From Scytolyngbya sp. HA4215-MV1 (GTDB lineage Bacteria; Cyanobacteriota; Cyanobacteriia; Leptolyngbyales; Leptolyngbyaceae): 64,000 nt of DNA. Location: the NCBI GenBank assembly GCA_019359045.1, contig JAHHIA010000004.1, forward strand, positions 124,001 to 188,000, read 5' to 3'. Position 1 is the first letter of the stretch. Each line of letters begins with the position of its first letter. Position numbers and translations under genes: made by a program. The notes below the pieces were generated by a model. It did no database searches, was not told the DNA's origin, and saw only the letters and a program-made list of their open reading frames with translations. Shown here piece by piece: positions 12,430 to 59,879 of this stretch.

Positions 12430-14181
12430 ATGACGATGGCGAGGTTTTTGGCGAACTTATTGTTGATTGCACCGATTTCATTAGGGATATTTTCTTCTGT
12501 CGCCAATGTGGCTTCTGCCACAGAAGAACTTGAGCCCCTGAGTGGGGTTCAAAAATCGGGCACTGGGATTCAGTCGATCGCTCCTCCAACGGGATTTCCC
12601 GCGATCGCGCCTGAATCTACACAATCGATGGAACAAGACCCTGTGCTTGAGTCTACTTGGATGGCTCAAATCACTTCTGTCTCTCAGTTATCGGATGTCA
12701 ATCAGTCGGATTGGGCATTTCAGGCATTACAGTCATTGGTCGATCGCTATGGTTGCATTGTGGGCTATCCAAATCAGTCTTATCGAGGTAATCGGGCACT
12801 GAGTCGCTACGAATTTGCTGCCGGACTGAATGCCTGCCTGGAGCAGGTAAACGGGCTGCTCGCCTCCGGCAGCGCGAGTCTTGTTCAGAAAGAAGACCTG
12901 GACAATTTACAAAAACTGCAAGAGGAATTTGCAGCAGAACTGGCAACTGTGCGGGGTCGGGTTGATGCGCTGGAAGTTCGGACGACGACCCTGGAGCAGC
13001 AACAGTTTTCGACGACGACCAAGTTGCATGGTGAAGTGATCTTTGCGGTCGCAGGTGTCGCGACCGGACAGGACGCCGACAATCGCGATATTGCCAGAAT
13101 TACCACTTTCAGCGATCGGGTACGGCTCAACCTGGATACCAGCTTCACCGGCAAAGATTTGCTGAGAACTCGCTTGCAAGCGCTCAATTCCAATTCCTTC
13201 TTCAGCGCTGCGGGAACAGGGACACAATTGCCCGAAGGTACGCTGGCGTTCAATGCTGAGTTAGATGACGAAGGACCTGAAAGCAACGGGGTCGGTCTCG
13301 ACACGTTGTATTACCAGTTTCCGATCGGGAAGAAAGCCAGAGTCACTCTCTTTGCCAATGAAGGAGAGGTTGATGACTTTACCAATACCGTGAACCCCTT
13401 TTTGGACGGAGATGACGGAGCCAGTGGAGCTTTATCCAAATTTGGCAGTCGCAATTCCGTTTACTATTTTGTCCCTCAGGGGACTGGCATCGGCTTCCAA
13501 TATCAGTTTTCTGACCAGATCGAATTGAGCCTGGGCTATTTGTCTAGCACTGCCTCTAACCCTAGTGCCAAGCGAGGATTGTTTAATGGTTCCTATGGTG
13601 CCATTGCCCAGTTGTCGATTCAACCCAGCGATCGCATTAGCCTTGGTTTTACTTATGTCAATGCCTACAACAATTTAGGCGAAGATCTAGTGTCGCCCGG
13701 AACAGGAAGTCAAAAGGCAAATCTGGGTTTGGTCACGGATGAACCCGTCATCAGCAATGCCTATGGGATAGAGGCGTCTGTTCAAATTACCCCTAACTTT
13801 TTCATCAATGGTTGGGTGGGTTATACTCGCAGTCGAGTGGTGAATGTAGGGGATGCTGATATCTGGAACTATGCCGTGGCGCTGGCTTTCCCAGATTTGG
13901 GAGGTAGAGGAAACCTGGCAGGTATCCTTGTTGGCATGGAACCGAAAGTAACGGGTGCCGATCGCGCCATTGCTGATGCTTTCACCGAAGTGGTGAGCGA
14001 TGACAATGAAGACTCGGCTCGCGATCGCAATACCTCTTTGCACGTCGAAGTGTTTTATACATTGGCCCTGAGTGACAACATTGCCATCACTCCGGGTTTG
14101 ATTTGGCTGACTGCTCCCAATCACGACAATCGAAACGATGACATTGTGATTGGCGTCATTCGCACCACATTTTTCTTTTAA
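12430..14181 (+). CDS. Iron-uptake porin, SLH-OprB type
   Basis: Outer-membrane porin of the cyanobacterial Som/iron-uptake-porin family, 583 residues. Order: signal peptide (residues 1 to about 30), a linker, one SLH domain at about 88-150 (VSQLSDVNQSDWAFQALQSLVDRYGCIVGYP), a coiled coil at about 155-195 that would span the periplasm, then an OprB-like beta-barrel ending in the typical aromatic terminus GVIRTTFFF. The SLH domain anchors to peptidoglycan-linked polymer. Family data connect these porins with passage of inorganic iron and small solutes. The gene is monocistronic with a striking palindrome 70 bp upstream. It may share physiology with the EfeO/EfeB and oxidase genes further right. 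Confidence 0.92.
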   Translation: MTMARFLANLLLIAPISLGIFSSVANVASATEELEPLSGVQKSGTGIQSIAPPTGFPAIAPESTQSMEQDPVLESTWMAQITSVSQLSDVNQSDWAFQALQSLVDRYGCIVGYPNQSYRGNRALSRYEFAAGLNACLEQVNGLLASGSASLVQKEDLDNLQKLQEEFAAELATVRGRVDALEVRTTTLEQQQFSTTTKLHGEVIFAVAGVATGQDADNRDIARITTFSDRVRLNLDTSFTGKDLLRTRLQALNSNSFFSAAGTGTQLPEGTLAFNAELDDEGPESNGVGLDTLYYQFPIGKKARVTLFANEGEVDDFTNTVNPFLDGDDGASGALSKFGSRNSVYYFVPQGTGIGFQYQFSDQIELSLGYLSSTASNPSAKRGLFNGSYGAIAQLSIQPSDRISLGFTYVNAYNNLGEDLVSPGTGSQKANLGLVTDEPVISNAYGIEASVQITPNFFINGWVGYTRSRVVNVGDADIWNYAVALAFPDLGGRGNLAGILVGMEPKVTGADRAIADAFTEVVSDDNEDSARDRNTSLHVEVFYTLALSDNIAITPGLIWLTAPNHDNRNDDIVIGVIRTTFFF

Positions 14182-14280
14182 ATGGGGGATTGCATTGTTA
14201 AAGCTTATGTTTCTGTTTTCTCCTAGGGACTCTAGCTGGGAAGAAGGCGTTTCATTCACTCATTTCATGGAGAGTTTGGC

Positions 14281-14736
14281 ATGAATAGAACACCCATCAA
14301 TTTCCGCATCGTCAGGTATTTGCTCACAAGTGCTCTGGTCTTGCCGCCGATTTGGGCTGGATTGCAGGCAAACGTTTTGGCTAATTGCACCTCTAGTGCT
14401 AGCAATTGCGGCAGTAAAACCGACAACGCCGCCTGCACTGAGACCAATCGCACGCCCTATGACTTGTACGCAGACACACAAACCGCTCACAAAGTCAAAC
14501 TTTCTTGGGAAGTCTGTCAGAAAAGTAATTTTTATCAGGTGAGCTGGAATCTAGTTGGCGGAGCCCCCACCATGGTTCAAGTCAATGATGCCAACACATT
14601 GAACTGGACGCTAACTCGCGTGAGAGATGAGGCTAAGTTCACCTTTAAGGTGCGCGGCTGCAACACTCACCCGAATGCAGAACCCGAATGCACGCCTTGG
14701 ACTGAGTTGACTGTTAAAACCCCAGATTGGGATTAA
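14281..14736 (+). CDS. Small secreted Cys-rich protein with FnIII-like fold, unknown
   Basis: 151 residues with a signal peptide ending near LQANVLA. The mature part has paired cysteines (NCTSSASNCGSK, AACTET, WEVCQKS, RGCNTHPNAEPECTPW) and a beta-rich pattern, KVKLSWEVCQKSNFYQVSW ... FTFKVRGCN ... WTELTVKTP, which reads like a fibronectin type III or similar Ig-like domain with disulfides. No catalytic motif. Start ATG at 14281 follows GGAGAG at a normal distance. It lies 99 bp after the porin gene on the same strand, so an outer-membrane or periplasmic partner role is possible but unproven. Confidence 0.7.
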   Translation: MNRTPINFRIVRYLLTSALVLPPIWAGLQANVLANCTSSASNCGSKTDNAACTETNRTPYDLYADTQTAHKVKLSWEVCQKSNFYQVSWNLVGGAPTMVQVNDANTLNWTLTRVRDEAKFTFKVRGCNTHPNAEPECTPWTELTVKTPDWD

Positions 14737-15036: not shown

Positions 15037-17553
15037 ATGGATCACAAGCTCCAGGATTCTATCGTTGTTATTACCAGTGGCGATTCTAGCAATCACCACC
15101 TGGGTACAGGATTTGTGATTCATCAGGAGCAAGCGCTGACTTACATTCTGACTTGTGCCCGTGTCGTGAAGGATTTGGGTGGGAGATCGGCGATCGTGGT
15201 CGAAGACATGTCTGCAACTGTAATCGCTTTGGGGGAACCCGATGGTGTGAATCTGGCTGTCTTGCAGGTTCCGGGATTGGGACACCATCCCCCTCTACAA
15301 CTGGTTCCAATGGCTGAGGCGGGAGATCCTGTGACGATCGCCGGATTTGACTCATCACTCGACTCGCTGCCCTATCAGGAGTTGCCAGGCGTTTTGGGGC
15401 AACTCATCGTGGTTACTCTACAACCACAAACAGAGCTGGTGGGCTTCTGGGGACTGGATCTGGCAGAAGAAAATCGGTTGACTCCGGGCGATCGTGGTGC
15501 TCCCATAGTCAATTCGCAAAACCAGGTGTACGGCGTGGTGGTGGAAGGACAGATGGGATCGAAATCGGGGTGGGCGATCTGCATTACCGCTTTACCCAAA
15601 ATCTGGACAGAGATGCCTTCCCATCTATTACCGGCTCCCGCACCTGAATCGCCTGCTGCAACGGCGGCTCCCACGATGCCATCCGACAGTATGGTAACGA
15701 TCGTCTTTACTGATTTGGTCGGTTCGACTGCATTAAAAAAGCATCTGCCTGGCAGTGACATTTCTGTCCGTAATCGCATTTACTTTGACACGATCCTGCG
15801 TCCTCATCGTCAAAAGGTCGAGGCAGAACTTGAGGAATACGGCGGGCGGGTGGTCAAAACGGAAGGAGATGCCTACTTTCTGGTCTTTGCCAGTGCTGCC
15901 AATGCAGCTCGGTGGGCAGTGTCGATGCAAAAGAGTCATTTACAAGACCCGATCACCACCCCCCTGGGAGCGCTAAGAGTTAAGGTCGGGATGCATACAG
16001 GCACTCCGTTGCAGGATGGCACCGATTTCATTGGGCATGAGGTAGACTTCGCCGCTCGGATTACTTCGGTGACACAAGGGGGAGAAATTTTGCTCTCGGA
16101 AGTGACAGCAGTGCTGGTGCGGGGCGCCCAGATTACTGGACTGGCGATTGCCTATCGGGGGGAACGAGACTTAAAAGGGATTGGCACTGTTCCCGTTTTT
16201 GAGCTGGTGTATGGGGGCAAATCGGTACAGGGTCCGATCGGGCAACCACCTCCCCCCCCAACTTCGCAAAACCTGTCAGGTGCTGTTCTGGCGCCTGATC
16301 CTCCCGGTTTGGCATTTGATACTGCCATTTCAGAGGTATCTAAACTGGTGCGTCGTCCTCCAGGGCGCAGGTTACAGCTCCTGATGCTTTGGGCGACGGT
16401 TGCAACTGCCACGGTGATGGGACTGCGAACCCTGGGGATTTTGCAGCCCTTGGAATTGAAGGCGTATGACCAAATGTTGGCGTTGCGCCCTCCAGAACCC
16501 GTTGATTCCCGCTTGTTGGTAGTGGCGTTTACTGAAACGGATGTGCAGACGCTCAACGAGCCTTCTCTATCCGATCAAAATCTGCTGAAAGTGTTGAAAA
16601 CGCTGGAGGCTCACGAACCTGTGGCGATCGGGCTGGATCTGTATCGCGATGTGCCGATCGGCAAAGGGCAAGCCGAACTTTTGCAACATCTGAAAACCAG
16701 CGATTTGATCGTTTCCACCTGCAAGGTGCCCGATCTGGACGATCGGTTGGGGGTTGCCCCACCACCTGGTTATCCAACTGATCACGCAGGTCAGAATACG
16801 GTGTTGGGGTTTAGCAATGCTGCCTTTGACCCCCATGGCGTGTTGCGTCGTCACTATCTGAGTCAGACATCACCGCCCGCTGCCGCCTGCCTACCGGACT
16901 ATGCCTTGAATGCGCAGCTAGCGTTTCGCTATCTCTACTCTCAGAAAAATATCCAACCCGAATTTCTTAATGACTCAACGCTGAAACTAGGAGCAACCCA
17001 GCTCCATCGCTTACCCAATCGGGCAGGTGGTTACCAAAAGTTTGATGCCAGCGGCTTCCAGCTTTTGCTCAATTACCGATTGCCCGCTGTGGCAGAGCAA
17101 ATCACGATCAATGATGTGCTCAGTGGCAGATTAAAGCCAGAGTCGGTGCGGAATCGGGTGATCTTAATTGGCGTCGATCGTGAAGACATTGATCGGGTGA
17201 TTACTCCAGATGGCTCCAGTATTGCCGGAGTTTTGAGTCAGGCTCAGGGGCTGAGTCAGATTCTCAGTGCCGTACTGGATCACCGCCCCCTCCTCAGTCC
17301 CTGGGCGATCGGCTGGGAAATTCTCTGGGTCTGGGGGTGGGCGATAGCGGGTGGGGCGATCGTCTGTTACCTGCGGCGTTGGCTGGTTCCTCTCGGTGGT
17401 GTCACGATCGTCCTGATTTCAGGAATGAGTTTTATCTTTTTTGTGGTACTGGGTAATTGGGTTCCTCTTGTTCCGACCGTTCTCGCCTGCATCCTAACGG
17501 GGGGCGGAATGACGACTTATCAGGTTAAACAAGGAAACGACGAGCGGACGTAG
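15037..17553 (+). CDS. Trypsin-like pseudoprotease - class III nucleotidyl cyclase - CHASE2 membrane protein
   Basis: 838 residues with an unusual order. Residues 1 to about 200 form a trypsin-fold domain whose catalytic triad is gone: TCAHVV is TCARVV (Arg42), the Asp position is Asn72 in VNLAVL, and GDSG is GDRG (Arg153). Residues about 218-400 are a class III adenylate/guanylate cyclase with both metal Asp present (Asp226 in FTDLVGST, Asp278 in TEGDAYF) and Lys in VVKTEGD; the usual Asn of VNxAAR is Asp (VDFAARI). Residues about 445-740 are a CHASE2 sensor, followed by about three membrane helices at the C-terminus. CHASE2 normally precedes the output domain, so this is an inverted layout. 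It heads a block with the DUF928 and FHA-CHAT genes, all on one strand. cAMP production is inferred. Confidence 0.9.
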   Translation: MDHKLQDSIVVITSGDSSNHHLGTGFVIHQEQALTYILTCARVVKDLGGRSAIVVEDMSATVIALGEPDGVNLAVLQVPGLGHHPPLQLVPMAEAGDPVTIAGFDSSLDSLPYQELPGVLGQLIVVTLQPQTELVGFWGLDLAEENRLTPGDRGAPIVNSQNQVYGVVVEGQMGSKSGWAICITALPKIWTEMPSHLLPAPAPESPAATAAPTMPSDSMVTIVFTDLVGSTALKKHLPGSDISVRNRIYFDTILRPHRQKVEAELEEYGGRVVKTEGDAYFLVFASAANAARWAVSMQKSHLQDPITTPLGALRVKVGMHTGTPLQDGTDFIGHEVDFAARITSVTQGGEILLSEVTAVLVRGAQITGLAIAYRGERDLKGIGTVPVFELVYGGKSVQGPIGQPPPPPTSQNLSGAVLAPDPPGLAFDTAISEVSKLVRRPPGRRLQLLMLWATVATATVMGLRTLGILQPLELKAYDQMLALRPPEPVDSRLLVVAFTETDVQTLNEPSLSDQNLLKVLKTLEAHEPVAIGLDLYRDVPIGKGQAELLQHLKTSDLIVSTCKVPDLDDRLGVAPPPGYPTDHAGQNTVLGFSNAAFDPHGVLRRHYLSQTSPPAAACLPDYALNAQLAFRYLYSQKNIQPEFLNDSTLKLGATQLHRLPNRAGGYQKFDASGFQLLLNYRLPAVAEQITINDVLSGRLKPESVRNRVILIGVDREDIDRVITPDGSSIAGVLSQAQGLSQILSAVLDHRPLLSPWAIGWEILWVWGWAIAGGAIVCYLRRWLVPLGGVTIVLISGMSFIFFVVLGNWVPLVPTVLACILTGGGMTTYQVKQGNDERT

Positions 17554-17667
17554 GAGATTCAGTTACCAAAGGCAAAAGCAGTCAATTTCTCCATTTTCCC
17601 GATCTGCCCCCTCTCCGCGTTGTCGCGTTTTTCCCTGGCTGTGCTCTATCTACCTTTCAGCAAGATT

Positions 17668-18495
17668 ATGTGTCAAATTGTCACTCGTTCTGGTTTCCTC
17701 GCGATCGCAATCCTGCCATTGCTCACTTGCTTTTCTTTGGATTGGCACCGTGCCGTAGCGGCGACCACTCCGATCAGCAGTCAATCTGTGGCACAGGCTA
17801 GCAGCCCGACAACTCCTCGCCAGAGACGACGTCTGTTTGTTCCTCCGAAGGCGCCTAACACTGGCAGAATTGGCAAGAGTCGAGGTACTGCGACCCGGGG
17901 GGGAGGTTGTCCGGCAGTCGATACACCTTTGACGGCACTGGTACCGGTTTACGAAACTAAGACAGGCGCAAAACTGCCCATGGGGTTGACCACTTCGGAA
18001 TATCCCACCCTCTGGTTTTACTTGCCCTATGCCCTAACCCTCGATCGTCCAGCGCGATTGGTTGTGGAAACATCCGAACTGGGCACTAATTATATGACCC
18101 AGCAAACGGTGCTGGAAATCACCAACCTGAAGGCAGGCATTGTCGGGATTCCTATTCCCAAAAGCCAGGCACCGCTCCAGATTGGGCAGCGGGCGAATTG
18201 GACGCTGACGATTTTGTGCAATCCTCAGGATGCAGCGGCAAATAAATATGTAGATGTGTCGCTGCAACGAGTTGCAGCCGATCCAACCTTGCAGCAACAG
18301 TTGGCAACCGCAACACTGGAACAACGGGTTGAGCTGTATGGGGCAGCAGGTTTGTGGGAAAACACGCTCACCACCCTTGCCCAACTGCGTCATGCGGCAC
18401 CCAACGATCGCACGTTAGCTGCCGATTGGCAAGATCTCTTACAAACCGCCAATCTGTCTGGGTTGGCGACCCAGCCTATGACCTATCTACCGTAA
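17668..18495 (+). CDS. DUF928 exported protein
   Basis: About 275 residues. A signal peptide (MCQIVTRSGFLAIAILPLL...) supports the ATG at 17668 rather than the TTG at 17620. After a Ser/Pro/Arg-rich linker comes the DUF928 domain, with the characteristic start GRIGKSRGTATRGGGCP and the core LTALVP, PTLWFYLPY and the end TLAQLRHAAPNDRTLAADWQDLL. The fold is predicted all-beta with a helical tail. The biochemical function is unknown. In cyanobacteria DUF928 genes repeatedly sit beside CHASE2 proteins and FHA/CHAT proteins, as here, with the cyclase-CHASE2 gene 114 bp upstream and the FHA-CHAT gene 275 bp downstream. A periplasmic adaptor role is an inference. Confidence 0.85.
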   Translation: MCQIVTRSGFLAIAILPLLTCFSLDWHRAVAATTPISSQSVAQASSPTTPRQRRRLFVPPKAPNTGRIGKSRGTATRGGGCPAVDTPLTALVPVYETKTGAKLPMGLTTSEYPTLWFYLPYALTLDRPARLVVETSELGTNYMTQQTVLEITNLKAGIVGIPIPKSQAPLQIGQRANWTLTILCNPQDAAANKYVDVSLQRVAADPTLQQQLATATLEQRVELYGAAGLWENTLTTLAQLRHAAPNDRTLAADWQDLLQTANLSGLATQPMTYLP

Positions 18496-18619
18496 TCGAA
18501 AAATTCTGGGCACCCCACTGTTCAGCTAGAGACCGCTGCCGATACGATGGATTTGAATGGGGAAGTTCTGGAATATCGCGGTAGTCACGATCGTTGGGAC
18601 GTTTCAAAGTTTGGAATCG

Positions 18620-18641
18620 ACAAAGGGCTTAAGCCCTTTGT
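18620..18641. terminator. 22-bp perfect palindrome between DUF928 and FHA-CHAT genes
   Basis: ACAAAGGGCTT is followed by its exact complement; flanking GAC/GTC extends the symmetry. It resembles a dispersed cyanobacterial REP and could terminate or attenuate read-through into the FHA-CHAT gene. The rest of 18496-18770 shows no other clear feature. Confidence 0.55.
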
Positions 18642-18770
18642 TGTCAGCTGGTGCTGATCGCGAGATCGACCCCCTTGAAATTTATTTAAAGGCTTTCTAC
18701 TACCGGAAAAAAGTTAGTGGATAATGTGCGGTAGTTCAGACTTTCGATTGGTGCCTATCTGGGGGTTGGG

Positions 18771-21700
18771 ATGAAAAGTAAGATTGTCAACAACTTCCTG
18801 CTCAAGTTGTCTTCTTTGCCAGGACAACGCCGGAGCAGGAGGGTGTTGTCCGTAGTGCTGGGGGCTCCTATATTGGGGGCGTTGATTCCGACGATCTCCC
18901 AAGCCCAAATTACCCCCGCCAATGATGGCACGGGCAGCATCGTCATCCAAAGGGGCGATCGCTTTGACATTAGCGGTGGCAAGTTCTCCAGAGATGGTGC
19001 CAATCTATTTCAGAGCTTCCAGCAATTTGGCTTGACTCAGGGCCAGATCGCCAACTTTCTCGCGAACCCCGCCGTTCGCAACATCCTGGCACGAGTGATA
19101 GGTGGCGATCCATCCTACATCAATGGCTTGCTCCAGGTGACAGGCAGCACTGCCAACCTCTATTTGCTGAACCCGGCAGGCATTATTTTTGGTGCCAACG
19201 CCAGTCTGAATGTCCCCGCTTCTTTTACTGCCAGTACTGCCACAGGCGTGCAAATTGGTAATCGTTGGTTGGAGGTACTGGGCGGCAATCAATATGCTCA
19301 GTTAATTGGTGCGCCGAGCACATTGGCGTTTGCCACGCTGCAACCCGGCGCAATTTTTAATGCCGGGAATTTGCGCGTGGATGCAGGGCAAAGTTTAACG
19401 CTGCTGGGAGGGACGATCGTCTCTACAGGTAGGCTCACAGCTCCAGGGGGAAGCATCACGATCGCCGCAGTCCCCGGACATCAACTCGTTCGCATCAGCC
19501 AGAGCGGCAGTCTCTTAAGTCTAGACTTGCCCCTCACCCCTTCACCCCCTGGCAACGGCATTCCGTTATCCTTGCCAGCCTTGCTCACGGGCGGCAATCT
19601 CACAGGCGCAACGGGGGTGATGGTTGACAATGGCATGGTTCGGCTCACAGGATCAGGTGTGACCATTCCTACGGCGGTGGGAACCACGATCGTCGCAGGC
19701 ACGCTCGACACGACCTCAACCACAGGCAGGTCTCAAATTCAGGTGTTGGGTCAACAAGTGGGACTGTTGGGTGCTAGCGTGGATGCGTCTGGTCGCCAAG
19801 GTGGCACCGTGTTGATCGGCGGCGACTATCAAGGATTGGGTACCACACCCACGGCTCAGGCAACCTTTGTCAGTGCCGATTCCCTCATTCGTGCCGATGC
19901 TCTGAGCATGGGCAATGGGGGCAAGGTGATTGTCTGGGCGGATGGCAGCACCCGTTTTTATGGCAGCATCAGCGCCAGAGGCGGAATGCGCGGCGGCAAC
20001 GGTGGCTTGGTCGAGACTTCGGGCAAGCAAAGTCTGGATATGGGGAATGCCAGCGTGGATGCAACGGCGATCGCGGGGCAAGCTGGCGTGTGGCTGCTTG
20101 ACCCGACCGATGTCACCATTGCGCTGGGGGGCACAGGCGGACTGACTGGGGGCATTTTTGACCCTGCCACCAATAGCACCATTTCTCCCATTACCATTGC
20201 CAATGCGTTGAATGCGGGGATTAATGTCACGATTACCACCAGTTCAGGAACCGGCGGCAATGGGGACATCACCCTGGTGGACAGCATTAACCAGACAGCA
20301 CCCAGCCTTGCCTCACTCACGCTGACGGGACGACAATTTTTGCGCCCTGGGACTGCGGTCATCAATCTGAACAGTAGCGGCGGGCTGATCTTTAATTTGA
20401 ACCAGATCAATCCCCAGGCAGCACCGCCTGGTAGCTCAATTCAAAATGCCATTGATGCGATCGGCACTGTCACCGCTGCCACCGTGAACATTGGAACCGG
20501 AACCTATAGTCTGACGGCTCCAATCTTGGTCAACAAAAATCTCACCTTGAATGGAGTCACAACCAGCAGCAGCACCCTCAATGGCAATAATGCTGTGCGT
20601 GTCTTGAACATCTCTGCCCCCAATGTCACTTTGAATAATCTCACCATTGCCAATGGTAATGTCACGGGCAGTGGCGGCGGCATTTTCCATACAGGTGCAG
20701 GCACGTTAACTGTGACCAACAGCGTGTTTCAGAATAACCAGGCGATCGGAGCGCCGGGAGGGGGCGGACAAATCGCCCCTCCTTTTAATCCAGGGTTGGG
20801 TGGAACTGCCAACGGTTTTGGTGGTGCAATTTTCACCCAAGGAACACTGAACGTTACCAACAGCACTTTCTCTGGCAACCTGGCTCAGGGGGGAGCCGGA
20901 GGATCTAATATCAGTTTTGGGGCTGGGGGTGGCGGCGGCGGCGCGGGGCTGGGAGGGGCAATCTTTAATGACGGTGGCACCGTGACCCTGACCAACAGCA
21001 TCCTAAATACCAATCGCGCCTTGGGAGGGAACGGCAACACAGGCGGACCGGGTAGTGGCGGACCGGGTAGCGGCGGTGGCGGGTTGGGTGGCAATGGCGG
21101 GGCAGTTGGCGGCAACGGCACCCCCGGTGGCTTTGGTGGCGGGGGCGGTAGTGGCGGTAGCCCTGGCGGGCTGGGTGGCGCAGGGGGCTTTGGTGGGGGC
21201 GGTGGCGGTACCGCGAGTGGGTCTGTTGCAGCAACCGGGGGGGCAGGGGGTTTCGGGGCTGGGAACGGGGGATCTTTCGGGGTCGTTGCCGCAGGCATTG
21301 GCGGCGGCGGCGGCGGCGGCGGCGGCGGTATGGGGGGAGCCGTCTTTAGTAATGGGGGAACGCTCACCCTTCTCAACAGCACCCTGTCTGGGAACCAGGT
21401 GCAGGGAGGCAATGGCGGCGCGACTCCCGCCAATGGCAGTGCTCAGGGCGGGGATGGTGGCTCTGGTTTAGGCGGTGCGATTTTTGGACTCAATGCCAAT
21501 GTAACGCTCACCAACAATACACTTGCCAATAATCAGGCAACGGGCGGAAATGGCGGACAACTTTTTAGTGGCACAGCGGGCGCACTGCCTGGAAACGCTG
21601 GCTCAGGTCAGGGGGGCAGCATCTTTAACACTGGCAACCTGACCCTAACAGGCTCAACCCTATCCAGTAACTTGGCGGTGAACTTGGGGGGCAGCATTCT

Positions 21701-24287
21701 CAACACTGGTAACCTGACGATCGGTAACAGCACGCTGAGTGGAAATTCTGCCATTCTAGGTGGAGCAATTAGCAATGCCACCAGCGGGGCAACCACGATC
21801 GTCAACAGCCTGCTAGCCAATAACACCGCCACCTCATCGGGCAATGCGGGTGGTGGCGGCATTTTCAATAGTGGGGGCATCTTGAATGTGAGCACTAGCA
21901 CGTTTAGTGGGAATAGAGCCACGACTGGATATGGGGGCGGCATCAACAGTTCCAGTGGCATTAACTCAGTCATTATCAACAGCAGTACCTTTACAGGCAA
22001 CCTTGCCAATGTGGGCGGTGGCATTGCCAGTTCTAGCCCACTTTCTATCACGAACAGCACCTTTAGTGGGAATGGCAATGCAGGAACCAGTGTCGCGGGT
22101 GGTGTTTACAACTTTGCCAGTACCGTCACTATCAACAACAGTACGTTTAGCAGCAATGTTGCAAGCAATGGGGGCGGCATTGTCAATGATTTCGGCACAT
22201 TGCAGCTAGGTAATAGCATTGTGGCAGCCAATAGTGGCGCTTCTGCTGCCGATGTGTTGGGCAATGTCAGCAGTGTAGGTAATAACATAATTGGCAACCC
22301 CAGTGGCGGGGTTGGTTTTGTCTCTTCCGATTTATTAAATGTCGATCCTCGGTTGGCTCCTTTGGGGAACTATGGTGGACCCACCCAGACGCTGGCGTTG
22401 CTGCCGGGTAGTCTCGCGATCGATGCGGCAGGGACAGGGGCAACAACCAGCGATCAACGCGGAGTTGGGGCAATTGGGCAACGCGATATTGGAGCCTATG
22501 AGTCGGGGGGATTTTTATTAGTTGCGATCGCGGGCAACGGGCAAACGACCCTAGTCAACAATGCCTTTGGCGTGCCCCTACAAGTCCGCTTGCTCGATTT
22601 ATCCAACAATCAACCCATTCTCGTTGCCGGAATTCCCGTGACTTTCACCCTACCAGTCCGTGGAGCCAGTGGGGTTTTCACCATCAGCACCACCGTCACC
22701 GTCTTAACTGATGCTCAAGGCATTGTAACCGCACCCACCTTATTCGCCAATAATGTCGACGGTAACTACGTCGTGACCGCCAATTCGCCTGGAACTGCGA
22801 GTGCAACCTTTAATCTCAGCAATCTACCCATTCCAACACCAACACCAACACCAACGCCAACACCAACGCCAACACCAACACCTACAGTAACCATTCCACC
22901 TGCCAAAGCGGTTCAGCAAAATCCGACTCCAGCTCAGCCTGCCCTTCCTTTGCCAATCAACCTATTGACTCCTGTGTTGAATGCTGGGTTTGATGCGGCT
23001 GAAGCTGGAATGACCAGTCAATTTGTCGATTATTTGGAACTATCCGACGCGCCTAAAACGATTAGTCTGGCTGGGGCGGTAAATACGTTGCACAACGTAG
23101 AAGTGGCGGCAGGGATTCGTCCAGCGTTAATCTATGTGAGCTTTGTCTCTCCGGAAATGGGAGCCAGTACTCGCTGTGCTGTGGATGCCCAACCCAGACT
23201 GATCCACGACCCTAAGACTGGCAAACTAGTACTGCAAGGGGCAGAATGTGGTCAAGCAGATCTGCAACTGTTACTGGTGACTTCATCGGGCAAATTGATC
23301 CGCAAACGCATCCCCGGTGCCACTCGTGCCCGAGTGCTGGCAGTTGCCAAACGATTTCGTTACGAAGTCTCTGACCCTAGCAAAACACGGACTCGCAGCT
23401 ATCTCCCAACCGCCAATCAACTTTACCATTGGCTGATTACGCCGCTGGAACCCGACCTGAAATCTGAAGGGATTGATACACTCACCTTCATTCTAGATAG
23501 TGGTTTGCGATCGATGCCGTTGGCAGCGTTGCATGATGGGCAAGACTTCCTGGTCGAACACTATCGACTGGGCTTAATGCCCAGCCTTAGCCTATCTGAT
23601 ACGCAGTATGCTGATATTCGCAAGATGCAAGTGCTGGCAGCGGGAGCCACCCAATTTGCCGATCAAAACCCACTGCCTGCGGTGTCGGTGGAGTTGACCA
23701 ACATTAACGATCGCTGGCGCGGACAGTCGATCGTCAACCAAGCGTTTACCTTCGCTAATCTGGTCAAAGAACGCAAAGAAACTCCTTTTGGCATTATTCA
23801 TCTGGCAACCCATGGGCAGTTTTTACCCGGCAAACTGAGCAATTCCTATATTCAACTGGCAGATAGTCGCTTAGGGTTGAACCAACTGCGGCAATTGGGC
23901 TGGGCAAATCCCCCGGTGGAATTAGTCGTTTTGAGTGCTTGCGAGATGGCGGTGGGCGATGACAATGCAGAACTCGGCTTTGCTGGGTTTGCGGTGAAGG
24001 CCGGGGCAAAATCGGCGCTGGCAAGTTTGTGGAGTGTCAGCGATGAAGGCACGGCTGGGTTAATGGCGGAGTTTTATGAGCAGCTGTGGAAGCAACCTGT
24101 AAAGTCGGAGGCATTGCGACAAGCGCAACGGGCAATGATTAATGGCACGGTGCGGATTGAGAATGGCAAGTTGATCTGGTCGAATGGGGCAGTAGATTTG
24201 CCGTCTGAATTGGCAAATCAAAGTAGTCAGAGTTTGTCGCATCCCTACTATTGGTCAACGTTTACGTTAATTGGTAGTCCCTGGTAG
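18771..24287 (+). CDS. Secreted filamentous-haemagglutinin / beta-helix protein with C-terminal CHAT protease
   Basis: 1838 residues. A long signal region (to about residue 46) leads into a TPS/FHA secretion domain, residues about 50-175, with NLYLLNPAGIIFGANASL. A right-handed beta-helix follows (repeated NSTFSGN-type coils, about 550-1200). Within it is a glycine-rich section, about 700-860. A Thr-Pro hinge of about 16 residues (near 1355) precedes the CHAT domain, about 1470-1835. Its caspase-type dyad is intact: His1681 in LATHGQF and Cys1724 in LSACEMAVGD. The FHA part predicts export through a TpsB/Omp85 partner, which is not in this window. So a caspase-like protease is displayed or released outside the cell. 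Substrate and activator are unknown; the upstream cyclase-CHASE2 and DUF928 genes are its likely functional neighbours. Confidence 0.93.
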   Translation: MKSKIVNNFLLKLSSLPGQRRSRRVLSVVLGAPILGALIPTISQAQITPANDGTGSIVIQRGDRFDISGGKFSRDGANLFQSFQQFGLTQGQIANFLANPAVRNILARVIGGDPSYINGLLQVTGSTANLYLLNPAGIIFGANASLNVPASFTASTATGVQIGNRWLEVLGGNQYAQLIGAPSTLAFATLQPGAIFNAGNLRVDAGQSLTLLGGTIVSTGRLTAPGGSITIAAVPGHQLVRISQSGSLLSLDLPLTPSPPGNGIPLSLPALLTGGNLTGATGVMVDNGMVRLTGSGVTIPTAVGTTIVAGTLDTTSTTGRSQIQVLGQQVGLLGASVDASGRQGGTVLIGGDYQGLGTTPTAQATFVSADSLIRADALSMGNGGKVIVWADGSTRFYGSISARGGMRGGNGGLVETSGKQSLDMGNASVDATAIAGQAGVWLLDPTDVTIALGGTGGLTGGIFDPATNSTISPITIANALNAGINVTITTSSGTGGNGDITLVDSINQTAPSLASLTLTGRQFLRPGTAVINLNSSGGLIFNLNQINPQAAPPGSSIQNAIDAIGTVTAATVNIGTGTYSLTAPILVNKNLTLNGVTTSSSTLNGNNAVRVLNISAPNVTLNNLTIANGNVTGSGGGIFHTGAGTLTVTNSVFQNNQAIGAPGGGGQIAPPFNPGLGGTANGFGGAIFTQGTLNVTNSTFSGNLAQGGAGGSNISFGAGGGGGGAGLGGAIFNDGGTVTLTNSILNTNRALGGNGNTGGPGSGGPGSGGGGLGGNGGAVGGNGTPGGFGGGGGSGGSPGGLGGAGGFGGGGGGTASGSVAATGGAGGFGAGNGGSFGVVAAGIGGGGGGGGGGMGGAVFSNGGTLTLLNSTLSGNQVQGGNGGATPANGSAQGGDGGSGLGGAIFGLNANVTLTNNTLANNQATGGNGGQLFSGTAGALPGNAGSGQGGSIFNTGNLTLTGSTLSSNLAVNLGGSILNTGNLTIGNSTLSGNSAILGGAISNATSGATTIVNSLLANNTATSSGNAGGGGIFNSGGILNVSTSTFSGNRATTGYGGGINSSSGINSVIINSSTFTGNLANVGGGIASSSPLSITNSTFSGNGNAGTSVAGGVYNFASTVTINNSTFSSNVASNGGGIVNDFGTLQLGNSIVAANSGASAADVLGNVSSVGNNIIGNPSGGVGFVSSDLLNVDPRLAPLGNYGGPTQTLALLPGSLAIDAAGTGATTSDQRGVGAIGQRDIGAYESGGFLLVAIAGNGQTTLVNNAFGVPLQVRLLDLSNNQPILVAGIPVTFTLPVRGASGVFTISTTVTVLTDAQGIVTAPTLFANNVDGNYVVTANSPGTASATFNLSNLPIPTPTPTPTPTPTPTPTPTVTIPPAKAVQQNPTPAQPALPLPINLLTPVLNAGFDAAEAGMTSQFVDYLELSDAPKTISLAGAVNTLHNVEVAAGIRPALIYVSFVSPEMGASTRCAVDAQPRLIHDPKTGKLVLQGAECGQADLQLLLVTSSGKLIRKRIPGATRARVLAVAKRFRYEVSDPSKTRTRSYLPTANQLYHWLITPLEPDLKSEGIDTLTFILDSGLRSMPLAALHDGQDFLVEHYRLGLMPSLSLSDTQYADIRKMQVLAAGATQFADQNPLPAVSVELTNINDRWRGQSIVNQAFTFANLVKERKETPFGIIHLATHGQFLPGKLSNSYIQLADSRLGLNQLRQLGWANPPVELVVLSACEMAVGDDNAELGFAGFAVKAGAKSALASLWSVSDEGTAGLMAEFYEQLWKQPVKSEALRQAQRAMINGTVRIENGKLIWSNGAVDLPSELANQSSQSLSHPYYWSTFTLIGSPW
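22833..22880 (+). repeat. Hexanucleotide microsatellite (CCAACA/CCAACG)8
   Basis: Eight tandem hexamers encode alternating Thr-Pro, forming the hinge between the beta-helix and CHAT parts. Change in copy number would stay in frame and alter hinge length by two residues per unit. Confidence 0.9.
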
Positions 24288-44013: not shown

Positions 44014-44318
44014 GAGAAATAAAACCTAATTCATATAAAAACTATCGCGCGTCTGGGTTAGCGACAAGGTAACCCAAACTATGATTCATTCAGCTTACCC
44101 CTTTATAAGGTTGGGCAGGCATACAAAATTGGGCATCTATCTTTGGAGAGATCTAGAAGCCCCTAATTTCTTCTGAAAACTCTATCTCCGGTAGGAAGCC
44201 AGGAATCAGTTCTGAGATAGATGATCGACGTGGACAAGCCCTAAATTTGCCCAAAATCTGTGCAACGACGATTCTCGCTTGCGATCGTCCCTCTACAGCG
44301 TCATCTAAGGGAACCCTT
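44014..44318. other. Intergenic region before the giant kinase
   Basis: Contains the promoter and leader of the kinase gene; no hairpin, repeat or operator stood out. Confidence 0.4.
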
Positions 44319-47300
44319 ATGCCAACTGCCCAAGCGCCAACTGAACCTAGCAACTTTGACCTGAAGCAACTTCTCAATGTGTTGATGGAAGTGAAGAAAG
44401 GCAATTTCTCCATTCGCATGCCTGCTGATCAGATTGGCATTGCTGGAAAAATTGCCGATACGCTCAACGACATCATTGAAAAAAATGAGCAGATGACGAC
44501 GGAGCTTGAGCGCATCAGTACGGTTGTCGGTAAAGAAGGGAAAATCAATGAGCGGGCTTCTATTGGGTCAGCGCGAGGATCCTGGAAGGCTTGTGAAGGC
44601 TCGATCAATTCCTTAATTGGGGACTTGGTGCAGCCGATGGCAGAAATTACTCGCGTCATTCGGGCAGTTGCCAATGGCAATTTGTCGCAGTCGATCGCCA
44701 CAGAAATTGATGGGCGATCGCTGCAAGGGGAATTCCTGCAAACGGCGCAAATCGTCAATACGATGGTGGGGCAGCTTAGCTCCTTTGCCTCGGAGGTAAC
44801 GCGGGTGGCGCGCGAGGTGGGCACCGAGGGGAAATTGGGTGTACAAGCAGAAGTGCGGGGGGTGGCAGGCACCTGGAAAGACCTGACCGACTCAGTGAAC
44901 TCCATGGCAGGCAACCTAACTGCCCAGGTACGGAATATTGCCGAAGTGACCACCGCTGTGGCAAACGGTGACCTTTCTAAAAAAATCACCGTCGATGTCA
45001 AAGGCGAAATTTTAGAACTGAAAAACACCATCAATACCATGGTGGATCAGCTCAACTCCTTTGCTTCGGAAGTCACGCGGGTGGCACGCGAAGTCGGAAC
45101 GGAAGGGAAACTGGGTGTGCAAGCGCAAGTGCCCGGTGTAGCAGGCACTTGGAAAGACCTGACCGATTCTGTGAATCTGATGGCAGGCAACCTCACGGCT
45201 CAGGTGCGCAACATTGCCGAAGTGACCACCGCCGTGGCGAATGGCGACCTGTCTAAGAAAATCACGGTCGATGTCAAGGGCGAAATTTTAGAGCTGAAAA
45301 ACACCGTCAATATCATGGTGGATCAGCTCAACTCCTTTGCTTCGGAAGTGACGCGGGTGGCGCGAGAAGTGGGTGCCGATGGCAAACTGGGCGGTCAAGC
45401 CGATGTGCGGGGTGTAGCGGGCACCTGGAAAGACCTGACCGACTCGGTGAATTTCATGGCAGGCTCGCTCACTGCCCAAGTGCGGAACATTGCCGAAGTG
45501 ACGACGGCAGTAGCCAATGGCGACCTCTCCAAGAAAATCACGGTCGATGTCAAAGGCGAAATTTTAGAGCTAAAAAACACCATCAACACCATGGTGGATC
45601 AACTCAACTCCTTTGCCTCGGAGGTGACGCGAGTTGCCCGCGAGGTGGGGACCGAAGGCAAACTGGGGGTACAGGCGCAAGTACCGGGGGTGGCAGGTAC
45701 CTGGAAAGACCTGACGGACAACGTCAACCTGATGGCGGGTAATTTGACCGGGCAGGTGCGAAACATTGCGGAAGTGGCAACCGCGATCGCCAATGGCGAC
45801 CTTTCCAAAAAAATTACCGTCGATGTGCGGGGTGAAATTTTTGAGCTAAAAAACACCATCAACATCATGGTGGATCAGCTCAACTCCTTTGCCTCAGAGG
45901 TAACGCGGGTGGCGCGCGAAGTAGGGGCGGAAGGCAAGCTAGGCGGACAGGCAGAGGTGCGAGGGGTGGCAGGTACCTGGAAGGATCTCACCGACTCGGT
46001 AAACTTCATGGCAGGTAGCTTAACGGCTCAAGTGCGGAACATTGCCGAAGTAACGACAGCGGTGGCGAATGGTGACCTGTCCAAGAAAATCACCGTGGAT
46101 GTCAAAGGCGAGATTTTAGAGCTGAAAAACACGATCAACGTCATGGTGGATCAGCTCAACTCCTTTGCTTCGGAGGTGACGCGGGTGGCCCGCGAGGTAG
46201 GCACGGAAGGGAAACTGGGGGTACAGGCGGAAGTGCGAGGCGTCGCAGGCACCTGGAAAGACCTGACCGACTCGGTAAACTCCATGGCAGGCAATCTCAC
46301 GGCTCAGGTGCGGAACATTGCCGAAGTGACTACCGCTGTGGCCAATGGCGACCTGTCCAAGAAAATCACCGTGGATGTCAAAGGCGAGATTTTAGAGCTG
46401 AAAAACACGATCAACACCATGGTGGATCAGCTCAGTTCCTTTGCCTCGGAGGTGACGCGGGTGGCGCGCGAGGTCGGTACGGAAGGGAAGCTGGGGGTAC
46501 AGGCTGAAGTGCGAGGTGTGGCGGGTACCTGGAAAGACCTCACCGATAACGTCAACTCGATGGCAGGCAACCTGACCGCTCAGGTGCGGAACATTGCCGA
46601 AGTGGCAACGGCGATCGCCAATGGCGACCTCTCCAAAAAAATCACCGTGCAAGTCAAAGGTGAAATCTTTGAGCTGAAAAACACCATCAACATCATGGTG
46701 GATCAACTCAGTTCCTTTGCCTCGGAGGTAACGCGGGTGGCGCGGGAAGTGGGCGCAGAAGGCAAACTGGGGGTACAAGCCGATGTGCGCGGTGTAGCAG
46801 GTACCTGGAAAGACCTCACCGACTCGGTAAACTTTATGGCAGGCTCCCTCACTGCCCAGGTGCGAAACATCGCGGCAGTCACAACGGCGGTGGCAAACGG
46901 TGACCTTTCCAAAAAGATCACGGTCGATGTCAAAGGCGAGATTCTGGAGCTGAAAAACACGGTCAACACGATGGTGGATCAGCTCAATTCCTTTGCCTCG
47001 GAGGTAACGCGGGTCGCGCGCGAGGTGGGCGCGGAAGGCAAGCTAGGCGTGCAAGCCGAAGTGCGAGGCGTGGCGGGCACCTGGAAAGACCTGACCGACT
47101 CGGTGAACTTCATGGCAGGCTCCCTCACTGCTCAGGTGCGGAACATTGCCGAAGTCACCACCGCCGTGGCTAACGGCGACCTCTCCAAGAAAATTACCGT
47201 GGATGTGAAAGGCGAAATTTTGGAGCTGAAAAACACGATCAATATCATGGTGGATCAGCTCAACTCCTTTGCCTCGGAGGTGACGCGGGTGGCAAGAGAG

Positions 47301-50300
47301 GTGGGGACGGAAGGGAAATTGGGAGTACAGGCGCAGGTACCCGGCGTGGCAGGTACCTGGAAAGACCTGACCGACTCGGTGAACTCGATGGCAGGCAACC
47401 TCACCGCGCAGGTGCGGAACATTGCTGAAGTGGCAACGGCGATCGCCAACGGCGACCTTTCCAAGAAAATCACCGTAGATGTGCGGGGTGAAATTTACGA
47501 ACTGAAAAACACGATCAACATCATGGTGGATCAACTCAGTTCTTTTGCTTCTGAAGTGACGCGGGTGGCGCGCGAGGTGGGCACCGAAGGCAAACTGGGC
47601 GGTCAGGCATTGGTGATTGGGGTGGCTGGTATTTGGAAAGACCTGACCGACAATGTGAACTCCATGGCGGGCAATCTGACGGCACAGGTGCGAGGCATTG
47701 CCAAAGTGGTAACTGCCGTAGCCAACGGCGACCTGAAACGCAAGCTGATGCTGGATGCCAAGGGAGAAATCGAAACCCTGGCAGATACAATCAACGAGAT
47801 GATTGACACGCTGGCAACCTTTGCCGACCAGGTGACCACAGTTGCGCGTGAGGTGGGCATTGAAGGCAAACTGGGCGGTCAGGCGAAGGTGCCGGGGGCA
47901 TCGGGCACCTGGCGGGCACTGACCGATAACGTGAATGAACTGGCGGCAAATCTGACAACCCAGGTGCGTGCGATCGCCGAGGTGGCAACCGCAGTGACCA
48001 AGGGCGACTTGACCCGATCGATTTCGGTAGAAGCCCAGGGTGAAGTGGCAATTCTAAAGGACAACGTCAACCTGATGATTGCCAACCTGCGCGAAACCAC
48101 CCAGAAAAACACCGAGCAGGACTGGCTCAAAACCAACCTGGCGAAGTTTACCCGCATGCTGCAAGGTCAACGGGATCTGGAAACCGTCTCCAAACTGATT
48201 TTGTCGGAATTGGCGCCCCTCGTTTCCGCTCAACACGGGGTCTTCTACTTACTAGAAACCAGCGAAATCCATCCTTCCCATTTGAAGCTGCTCAGTACCT
48301 ATGCCTATCGCGAACGCAAACATCTCGCCAATCGCTTCTACTTGGGCGAAGGACTGGTCGGACAGTGTGCGCTGGAGAAAGAGCGCATTCTGGTCACCGA
48401 GGTGCCGCACAACTATATCAAGATCAACTCCGGGTTAGGCGAAGCTCCCCCGATGAATGTGGTAGTGTTGCCCGTCCTGTTTGAAGGGCAGGTAACCGCA
48501 GTGATTGAGCTAGCTTCGTTTAATCGATTTAATGAAATTCACCTCACCTTCTTTGATCAGCTCACCGAAAGTATCGCCATCGTGCTGAATACGATCGCCG
48601 CTAGCATGAGAACTGAAGAACTGTTGAAGCAGTCCCAATCCCTGGCAGAAGAACTGCAAAGCCAGCAGACCGAGTTGACCGACACCAACAAGCGATTGGA
48701 ACAGCAAGCCCAATCCCTCAAGGCATCAGAAGAATTGCTCAAGAGTCAGCAAGAACAACTGCAACAAACTAACGAAGAATTGCAAGAAAAAGCCGAATTG
48801 TTGGCGCTGCAAAATCGAGAAGTGGAACGCAAGAATACTGAAATTGAGCAAGCGCGCCGATCGCTAGAAGAGAAAGCCGAGCAGTTGGCACTCACCTCCA
48901 AATATAAATCCGAGTTCCTCGCCAACATGTCTCACGAATTGCGAACCCCACTCAACAGCTTGCTGATTCTGGCGCGACTGCTGGCAGACAACAGCGACGG
49001 TAACCTGACCCAGCGCCAAGTGGAATACTCCCAAACTATCTACTCGGCGGGTAATGATCTGTTGGGATTGATTAATGACATCTTAGATTTAGCCAAAATC
49101 GAATCGGGCACGATCTCGGTCGAAGCGGAACAAATGTTGTTTACTGACCTCCAGGTACATCTGGAGCGCACCTTCCGGCAAGTGGCGATCGATCGCAAGC
49201 TCGACTTCTACCTCCGCTTCAACGAGTACCTACCTCGCAGCATCTACACCGATGCCAAACGACTCCAGCAAGTGCTCAAGAATTTACTGGCAAATGCCTT
49301 TAAGTTTACCGAGCGGGGGCATGTCTTGCTGGATGTCAGCGTCGTCACCAATGGCTGGAATCCAGAAAACGAAACCCTCAACCAGGCAGAACAAGTCATC
49401 GCCTTCGCGGTAACGGATACTGGCATTGGCATTGCTTCCGAGAAACAGCAAATTATCTTTGAAGCTTTCCAACAGGAAGACGGCACCACCAGTCGTCGCT
49501 ATGGGGGCACTGGGCTAGGACTGTCGATTAGCCGAGAAATTGCTCACCTGCTTGGGGGCGAAATCCGCCTGATCAGCAAGCTAGGCAGTGGCAGCACCTT
49601 CACACTCTACTTGCCCCTCATCTATTCGGGTGGGCAGGACGACCCCAAACGGCGGGTAGACGGATTGCTGCGCAAGCGTCTGGATGAAGACTCCCCTAGA
49701 ATCCAACCTGCGTCTGCATTGAGCTCTCCCTCAACCCTAGCTCGGAGCATCAGCGATGCGCCCCCTCCGCTACAGCAGGAGATGCGATTGACCTCCCCTG
49801 CCTCTAGCACGCTGCATCATGAGCAGATTATCGAAGACGATCGCACCACCATTGGCTCTGGCGATCGGGCACTGCTGATTATTGAAGATGACCTGAACTT
49901 TGCCCGAATTCTGCTCGATCTCACCCGCCAACAAGGCTTTAAAGGACTGGTGGCAACCCGGGGTGACATTGGTTTGGACATGGCGAGACAATTTCAGCCA
50001 GCCGCCATCATGCTCGATATCCGTTTGCCCATTTTGGATGGCTGGACCGTGCTCAACTATCTCAAGCATGATCCCGGTACACGCCACATTCCCGTTCAAA
50101 TTATGACTGTAGAAGATGGGCAAGATCGGAGCTTGCGACAAGGTGCGATCGCCTATTTGCAAAAACCCATCAGCAGCGAAGCTTTGTTGAATGCGCTCGC
50201 CAGTATCCGAGAATTTGTCGAGCGTTCGATTAAGACGTTGCTTGTGGTAGAGGACGACCCCGTACAGCGGCAGAGCATGATCGACTTAATTGGCAACGGC

Positions 50301-51053
50301 GATGTTGTGACGGTTGCAGTCGAAACCGGTGCCGCAGCCCTTGAAACGATTCGCTCACAACGGGTTGATTGTCTCGTGCTCGATCTGCTGTTGCCTGATA
50401 TGGATGGGTTTGAACTGATTGAGCAAATTAAGCGAGAACCCAACCTGGAGCGTCTGCCCATTATCATTTACACCGGCAAGGAACTGACCCCTCCAGAAGA
50501 AACTGAATTGCGCCGCCTTTCCGACACGTTGATCATTAAAGGTGTGCGATCGCCAGAACGATTGCTGGACGAAACAGCCCTCTTCTTGCACCGAGTTCAG
50601 TCCAATCTACCCGAACAGCAGCGACTCATACTCGAACAATTGCGGCGTAATGATCCCATTCTGACTGACAAAAAGGTTTTGATCGTAGATGACGATGTTC
50701 GCAATATCTTTGCCCTGACCAGCGTATTGGAACGCTTCCAGATGCAAGTCTTTCATGCTGAGAATGGCAGGGATGGAATTGCTATCCTCCAGGTGAATTC
50801 CGATATCGATGTGGTGCTAATGGACATCATGATGCCAGAGATGGACGGCTACGAAACCATGCGATCGATTCGTCAGATGAGCCAATTCATGACCCTACCG
50901 ATGATTGCCCTCACGGCAAAAGCCATGAAAGGCGATTGTGAAAAGTGCCTGAATGCAGGGGCAACCGACTACATCACGAAACCTGTTGAGATCGAGCAAC
51001 TGCTCTCCATGCTCAGAATTTGGCTGTGTCAGGCAGAGGAACGAGCTTCTTAA
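44319..51053 (+). CDS. Giant soluble hybrid histidine kinase with 12 tandem HAMP repeats, GAF and three receivers
   Basis: 2244 residues from the ATG at 44319 (AAGGGA upstream). Residues 1-148 hold two divergent HAMP-like units. Residues 149-1252 are twelve consecutive 92-residue HAMP repeats (core [20 protein letters not shown], then [50 protein letters not shown]). A GAF domain (about 1275-1425), a coiled coil (1430-1525), HisKA with His1539 in [10 protein letters not shown], HATPase with [13 protein letters not shown], then three receivers with phospho-Asp in LDIRLP, LDLLLP and MDIMMP. No transmembrane segment. The repeat unit closely resembles that of fungal group III kinases (Nik1/Os-1), osmosensors with five to six copies. 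The next gene, 62 bp on, is another kinase and likely partner. Confidence 0.95.
44763..48074 (+). repeat. Twelve tandem 276-bp HAMP-coding repeats
   Basis: Units begin at 44763, 45039, 45315, 45591 and so on, each exactly 276 bp, with no length change over 3312 bp. Inner copies are nearly identical; the last two (from 47523) are more diverged. Variants alternate (TEG/AEG/ADG; VRGV/VPGV; FMAGS/SMAGN/LMAGN). Confidence 0.95.
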
Positions 51054-59750: not shown

Positions 59751-59879
59751 TGGAGTGAAGAAGTCCTGCCTCTTGACTCGTGACTCCTCACTTTGAATCT
59801 TTACCAAACCTACGTAAATTCCACAGACTTCCTTGCTTAGAATAGAATTTCCCTCAAATACCATAAAGTGGAGTCCTGC

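Follow-up and report, generated by a model that had tools for sequence, protein, structure and literature searches.

What joins a membrane receptor, a small protein with an export-type start and a very large FHA-CHAT protein that are encoded one after the other in a cyanobacterial genome? The three genes lie on contig JAHHIA010000004.1 of Scytolyngbya sp. HA4215-MV1 (assembly GCA_019359045.1, genome size 6.6 Mb), within a stretch of 64,000 nucleotides (positions 124,001 to 188,000) referred to here as the window. Gene 1 encodes a receptor with a CHASE2 sensor domain and a class III nucleotidyl cyclase domain, gene 2 a member of the DUF928 family and gene 3 the FHA-CHAT protein. As the initial annotation of the window had described, these are three consecutive open reading frames (ORFs) on one strand, and all are intact and carry the expected Pfam domains (Table 1). 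The encoded proteins are 838, 291 (counted from a TTG start) and 1838 amino acids (aa) long. The answer favoured here, with a probability of roughly 0.57, is that DUF928 is an exported partner of CHASE2 receptors and that at this locus it reports the state of the surface or envelope to the cyclase.

The families concerned are large in this genome, with 19 DUF928 over cut-off, 16 CHASE2, 27 CHAT rows and 14 two-partner secretion (TPS) domains. Such numbers would suit a looser view of the block, in which surface, adhesion and conflict-type genes share islands or regulators without a joint pathway. The placement of the families departs strongly from random. A CHASE2 domain lies within 3 kb of 5 of the 19 DUF928 (random mean 0.27), a count reached in 0 of 2000 simulations. 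Within 8 kb of DUF928, CHAT was found for 7/19 (random mean 1.1) and TPS for 6/19 (0.64), again equalled in 0 of 2000 simulations each; one of these seven CHAT is the receptor's own domain (contig C16). Direct linkage of CHASE2 to TPS (3/16 within 8 kb, equalled in 30 of 2000 simulations) and to CHAT (3/16, 138 of 2000) is weak when taken alone, which is in keeping with the looser view.

Eight other genomes, picked for few contigs and different genera and all with a match to the window DUF928, gave a similar picture. CHASE2 was located within 2.5 kb of 27 of their 45 DUF928, where 0.46 would be expected, and this was seen in seven of the eight. Conversely, 25 of 62 CHASE2 domains have a DUF928 partner within the same distance. 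Of the 25 CHASE2 with DUF928, 13 have a TPS or strong CHAT domain (E up to 1e-50) no more than 5 kb away, as do 2 of the 37 without (Fisher p 3.9e-5), so the TPS/CHAT linkage goes with the DUF928-linked CHASE2. The initial annotation had held that a lack of co-occurrence across genomes would speak against a joint system; the neighbourhood counts instead give co-occurrence far beyond chance.

The arrangement of the pair was then surveyed in 60 DUF928 loci from 37 genomes, which contain 65 DUF928 genes. Because these loci were chosen for high similarity to the window DUF928, their linkage rate is no estimate for the family, and the eight-genome count is the fairer one. CHASE2 is the immediate neighbour of 43/65 DUF928, on the same strand in 42, in 30 of the 37 genomes. 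In 31 cases DUF928 comes after a gene with the effector before CHASE2 (effector-first), in eight it precedes a CHASE2-cyclase gene, in one the neighbour is on the opposite strand and 22 DUF928 are without it. The remaining three follow genes in which CHASE2 was read as coming first; two of those genes are short fragments at contig ends. Since the two orders place the effector at opposite ends of CHASE2, the constant element is the CHASE2-DUF928 pair and not its output. Although DUF928 without CHASE2 is common, adjacent pairs mostly share a strand and follow one of two orders, and this makes loose clustering without a joint pathway quite unlikely.

The output module of the usual effector-first receptor is a CHAT domain. 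The CHAT motifs FFAGHS and IFNSCDG are present in 32 of 36 effector-first CHASE2 proteins (the 60-locus set plus the own genome), and Pfam confirmed CHAT in all four that were scanned. This domain sits on the cytosolic side of the CHASE2 protein. Other effector-first outputs are a kinase (L196 by Pfam, L095 by eye), AAA_35 (L191) and the trypsin-cyclase of the window. DUF1822 occurs somewhere in 20/60 loci (one-sequence model; confirmed by Pfam in the one scanned). Three genes of about 220 aa upstream of DUF1822 matched no Pfam family at E 0.01. At least six loci have an upstream gene weakly resembling extracytoplasmic function (ECF) sigma factors; that label, adopted with caution from the literature, is weak, with TIGR02937 at E 0.026 for one of two scanned and an RpoE chain at E 0.16.

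The CHASE2 domain of gene 1 groups with the effector-first set (34 rows; Shimodaira-Hasegawa-like approximate likelihood ratio test support 86, not starred). For this reason the window is read most simply as a variant of the cassette in which the cytosolic arm would have been exchanged for a dead trypsin and a cyclase. The order at L175, DUF1822 > CHASE2 > DUF928 > TPS > CHAT, corresponds to that of the window with TPS and CHAT in separate genes. The family combination recurs, as the initial annotation had held; its constant core is the CHASE2-DUF928 pair, and the secreted TPS/CHAT companions are frequent, not constant. CHASE2, DUF928 and TPS and/or CHAT form one same-direction run in 17/60 loci.

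Some individual loci differ in layout. L187 contains two DUF1822-CHASE2-DUF928 cassettes on opposite strands, in divergent orientation. Elsewhere in the own genome, a CHASE2 protein that ends, by eye, in a GGDEF-type region is encoded divergently from an FHA-CHAT gene, with no DUF928 nearby (L092, C11:188000-204000). Another CHASE2 gene lies within a contractile tail or injection-like cluster, with a tail-sheath-like N-terminus by eye (L098, C23:262000-277000).

The DUF928 protein itself scores 177.7 bits against PF06051 (cut-off 26). The ATG at 17668 begins a signal-peptide-like start, judged by eye and by N-terminal hydropathy, in agreement with the initial annotation, which had called the protein exported. 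A hydrophobic N-terminal segment is found in 76/79 aligned DUF928 and a later membrane-like stretch in 0/79, and two Cys columns are each retained in 76/79. Export of DUF928 to the periplasm is likely. AlphaFold models of two members, with a predicted local distance difference test score of 84.4 and 84.8, consist of an immunoglobulin (Ig)-like sandwich and a four-helix TPR-like end.

Searching with the window DUF928 found relatives (E up to 1e-15) in 85 of the 386 genomes searched from the phylum, a count that includes the own genome. In G183, a genome of the same family, the best-matching DUF928 shares 33% identity, and next to it (L210) are genes for a CHAT-CHASE2 receptor and for a CHAT protein. 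Reassortment of partners was also considered. In a quick tree the window DUF928 fell outside a 41-row clade holding 30/32 DUF928 linked to effector-first CHASE2. The idea was dropped, as a tree constrained to join the window DUF928 with this clade was not rejected by the approximately unbiased test (p 0.925) and had the higher likelihood.

The fold points to a known protein with the same type of neighbour. For both DUF928 models the top VIA-align row is MtxA (4z29), with Z of 9.6 and 9.9 and next rows of 6.1 and 6.7. The match extends over about 150 residues and both domains, Ig-like and TPR, at a root-mean-square deviation (rmsd) of 4.0 for the predicted models. MtxA is described as having a signal peptide and Ig-like and TPR parts, and in magnetotactic strains its gene is followed by a CHASE2-cyclase gene (PMC4439547). 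It differs in an extra N-terminal domain, DUF7354, which is not part of DUF928. The likeness is claimed for the fold of the models and the gene context, not as sequence homology. MtxA was not among the matches listed in PDB searches with DUF928 profiles, no MtxA family was among the Pfam rows at E up to 0.5, and MtxA_IG-like was not found in 146 genomes of the window's phylum in a search without a positive control.

A scan for the mtxA motif returned 45 stretches, 44 with an ORF of at least 150 aa. A same-strand CHASE2 gene directly follows mtxA in 39/44; the other five have less than 300 bp of sequence available downstream, giving 39/39 testable loci, which represent one orthologous family, mainly of Proteobacteria, and are not independent. 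A separate exported Ig-TPR protein with the same CHASE2 adjacency again argues against loose clustering. In five mtxA loci a CHAT gene comes next, with a signal-like N-terminus by eye; its His motif is present and the Cys was unmatched by the search pattern. In the open-licence literature, MtxA and CHASE2 appear together in a single report only.

Two proteobacterial loci, L221 and L253, have the order CHASE2-kinase, PP2C-like (then FHA-like in L221), MtxA, CHASE2-cyclase, the PP2C and FHA labels being by eye. One MtxA is placed there between two CHASE2 receptors.

It is possible, at somewhat less than even odds, that an exported co-receptor of the Ig-TPR type often assists CHASE2 receptors. 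The cyanobacterial DUF928 and the proteobacterial MtxA would be either two very divergent branches of this partner or convergent versions of it, and the module would be coupled to CHAT both inside and outside the cell. If true, the CHASE2 ligand would be, or be presented by, the Ig-TPR partner. A 2023 paper (PMC10581220) calls the ligands of CHASE2 unknown, and solving the structure of MtxA and deleting its gene did not yield a function for it (PMC4439547). Two orphan questions would be joined into one testable pair, and DUF928 would receive its first role.

On the receptor side, the first description of gene 1 as a cyclase-CHASE2 sensor stands for both domains; it overlooked the N-terminal trypsin-like domain. 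The CHASE2 domain is followed by two strong hydrophobic 19-mers, and the remaining helices were seen by eye. The His-Asp-Ser triad of an active trypsin-like protease is absent from gene 1 (H to R42, D to N72, S to R153) and, on these substitutions, the domain is inactive. The trypsin-cyclase N-terminus was searched in 386 genomes with at most four candidates scored per genome. Three gave a match at E 1e-20, namely the own genome and two others in which only the trypsin part was covered. Both relatives (L120, L121) retain the H/D/S triad and each has a gene of about 104 aa immediately upstream, while one adjoins an AAA ATPase gene of MoxR look (by eye). This resembles what Kaur et al. (PMC8195603) describe for trypsin proteins of conflict systems.

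The cyclase match is 44.6 bits against a cut-off of 21.9, and the nearest PDB structure is Ma1120 (E 1.4e-15). Class III cyclases employ two metal-binding Asp, a Lys and an Asp for the substrate and an Asn and an Arg for the transition state. Gene 1 retains Asp226, Asp278, Lys274, Asp330 and Arg341, which we take to be both metal Asp and a Lys and Asp of the adenylyl type; the usual Asn is replaced by Asp337. With all three trypsin positions also replaced, gene 1 might be degenerate, neither domain being catalytic and the protein a scaffold or decaying. This is very doubtful, because the frame is long and intact, the Asp pair, Lys, Asp and Arg of the cyclase are retained and Ma1120 itself has Ala at the Asn position in the alignment.

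A different use of the same genes had been proposed in the initial annotation, namely that an external stimulus acting through CHASE2 and the cyclase could activate the secreted FHA-CHAT, which would serve as a protease arm outside the cell. The protein fits such a role in several respects. The CHAT dyad His1681/Cys1724 is intact exactly as claimed, and both columns are invariant in 43/43 aligned CHAT domains. FHA-CHAT also has an export-type start and an N-terminal TPS domain, and its export is inferred. The search for a TpsB partner elsewhere in the genome, as had been advised, gave five ShlB (TpsB) matches over cut-off; none adjoins FHA-CHAT and the one on the same contig lies about 43 kb upstream. 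The same-strand gene order, and the clustering of TPS and strong CHAT genes with DUF928-linked CHASE2, would also be expected. A protease arm is nevertheless unlikely to be the output, as the usual receptor bears its own CHAT on the cytosolic side and the TPS and CHAT genes have no fixed place, occurring upstream or downstream of the pair or on the other strand, and many cassettes lack them. No connection from cAMP to the protease was met, and none was sought. Signalling could also run in the reverse direction, from the secreted side to the receptor.

The spacing of the genes is a further point against this arm. Gene 1 and gene 2 are separated by 66 bp to the TTG or 114 bp to the ATG. A spacer of 275 bp containing a perfect 22-bp palindrome stands ahead of FHA-CHAT. 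The palindrome was found in 4/211 loci searched (L008, L026, L072, L122), all of which are this same site. Folding of the spacer has a z of -2.3 against shuffles, of which 6/200 were equally good, and by drawing the palindrome is the main contributor. An intergenic terminator or promoter was not retained as a candidate, with promoter-like sites about as many as in shuffles and terminator-like sites fewer.

In the favoured reading, the inner-membrane CHASE2 receptor would be paired with the periplasmic Ig-TPR protein DUF928. DUF928 would sense the condition of the envelope or of proteins at the surface; FHA-CHAT from the same gene block, or fragments cleaved from it, may be among the latter. 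DUF928 would then contact CHASE2 and alter the activity of the cyclase, and with it the level of cyclic adenosine monophosphate (cAMP). FHA-CHAT may act as ligand, substrate source or processing enzyme, and the dead trypsin-like domain probably serves in regulation or docking. The physical contact, the direction of signalling and cAMP as the product are those steps which we infer.

Precedents exist for parts of this scheme. The Sinorhizobium meliloti (S. meliloti) CHASE2 cyclases CyaD1, CyaD2 and CyaK respond to a plant protein via the outer-membrane protein NsrA (PMC13001267). This resembles the window in that CHASE2 cyclases are signalled through another envelope protein, and it shows that a CHASE2 receptor can depend on one. 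Differences are the symbiosis setting and the description of NsrA as a beta-barrel of the outer membrane. A CHASE2-GGDEF protein is known from Leptolyngbya as a suppressor of motility and biofilm (PMC10581220), which makes surface behaviour plausible as an output.

The usual cassette looks like a CHASE2 version of the EACC2-caspase systems (PMC8195603), a likeness drawn from the caspase module and neighbours, EACC2 itself aside. Those systems resemble the relatives of the locus in a caspase-like module with a C-terminal CHASE2, some with an upstream DUF1822 and ECF-like gene. DUF1822 and ECF sigma neighbours are reported for most TRADD-N-independent cases (PMC8195603), and no mention of DUF928 was found in the accessible parts of that account. 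Gene 1 departs from them in having no CHAT module and no adjoining DUF1822 or sigma gene. A Trichodesmium metacaspase-CHASE2 protein, proposed to act in the cytoplasm, also has a caspase-type domain first and CHASE2 last, flanked by helices (PMC3501461, PMC2853523). It is unlike the usual receptor in its p20 metacaspase domain, in being a single protein in the surveys and in that DUF928 is not mentioned in the accessible parts of those papers.

HetF of Anabaena is a membrane-anchored CHAT (CHAT-TM) and so bears a likeness to the CHAT-CHASE2 relatives (PMC8406250), two of which have a weak NCBIfam similarity to HetF, far below cut-off. HetF differs in its divisome and heterocyst role, and the term CHASE is absent from the main text as available (PMC8406250). 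By name, DUF928 was met in the open-licence literature in PMC5587647 only. A CHASE2 gene and a DUF928 gene share one array there in Nostoc punctiforme, one of seven surveyed species. The array served a discussion of WD40 proteins, and a CHASE2-DUF928 pairing was not proposed in the sections available (PMC5587647).

Several observations weigh against the favoured reading. In the eight genomes, 18/45 DUF928 lack a CHASE2 within 2.5 kb. Gene calling resolved 18 of the 19 DUF928 in the own genome, and 13 of these have no adjacent CHASE2. With so many lacking CHASE2, DUF928 also has another role or acts at a distance. The cyclase Asn position, Asp in the window, is Asn in 16/18 other cyclase ORFs (the pattern was not found in two), and cyclase activity is therefore uncertain. 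The search of the trypsin-cyclase N-terminus found no full-length relative among the candidates scored, so the exact arrangement of gene 1 is not known as conserved. As regards MtxA, the structural match has an rmsd of 4.0, MtxA is absent from the best 50 rows of Foldseek's own ranking for the first DUF928 model, and hhalign comparisons, whole and by domain, were not significant for sequence homology. Deletion of mtxA gave no phenotype in its authors' assays (PMC4439547).

Table 1. Features of the three-gene block (positions in the window; residues of the encoded protein)
Feature	Position	Strand	Residues	Basis
Gene 1, receptor: Trypsin_2, class III cyclase, CHASE2 with membrane helices at C-terminal end	15037..17553	+		ORF, Pfam
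Trypsin_2 domain, three catalytic positions substituted	15103..15537	+	23-167	Pfam, alignment
Class III nucleotidyl cyclase domain (Guanylate_cyc)	15685..16194	+	217-386	Pfam
CHASE2 sensor domain	16402..17355	+	456-773	Pfam PF05226, 165 bits
Gene 2, DUF928 protein, likely ATG start (ORF from TTG, 17620..18495)	17668..18495	+		Pfam, models, structure matches, hydropathy
Perfect 22-bp palindrome, DUF928/FHA-CHAT spacer	18620..18641			Single copy in window
Gene 3, FHA-CHAT protein: TPS, Gly-rich repeat region, choice-of-anchor Q, CHAT	18771..24287	+		ORF, Pfam
TPS domain	18903..19571	+	45-267	PF05860, 122.7 bits
CHAT caspase-like domain with His1681 and Cys1724	23406..24278	+	1546-1836	PF12770, 227 bits

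Directly upstream of the block (12430-14736) are a gene for an SLH-OprB (somb) porin and an ORF whose fn3-like match is weak, and domain scans of this interval gave no DUF1822 or sigma match. The downstream neighbours are a DUF4440 gene and a hydrolase. Two further ORFs of the window were recorded. At 44247-51053, an ORF of 2268 aa, in which a 276-bp unit is repeated in tandem about 10.8 times (82% matches), is possibly a multi-HAMP signalling protein, by eye. At 59868-63902, an ORF of 1344 aa has a repeat at 63120-63380 labelled WD40-like by eye.

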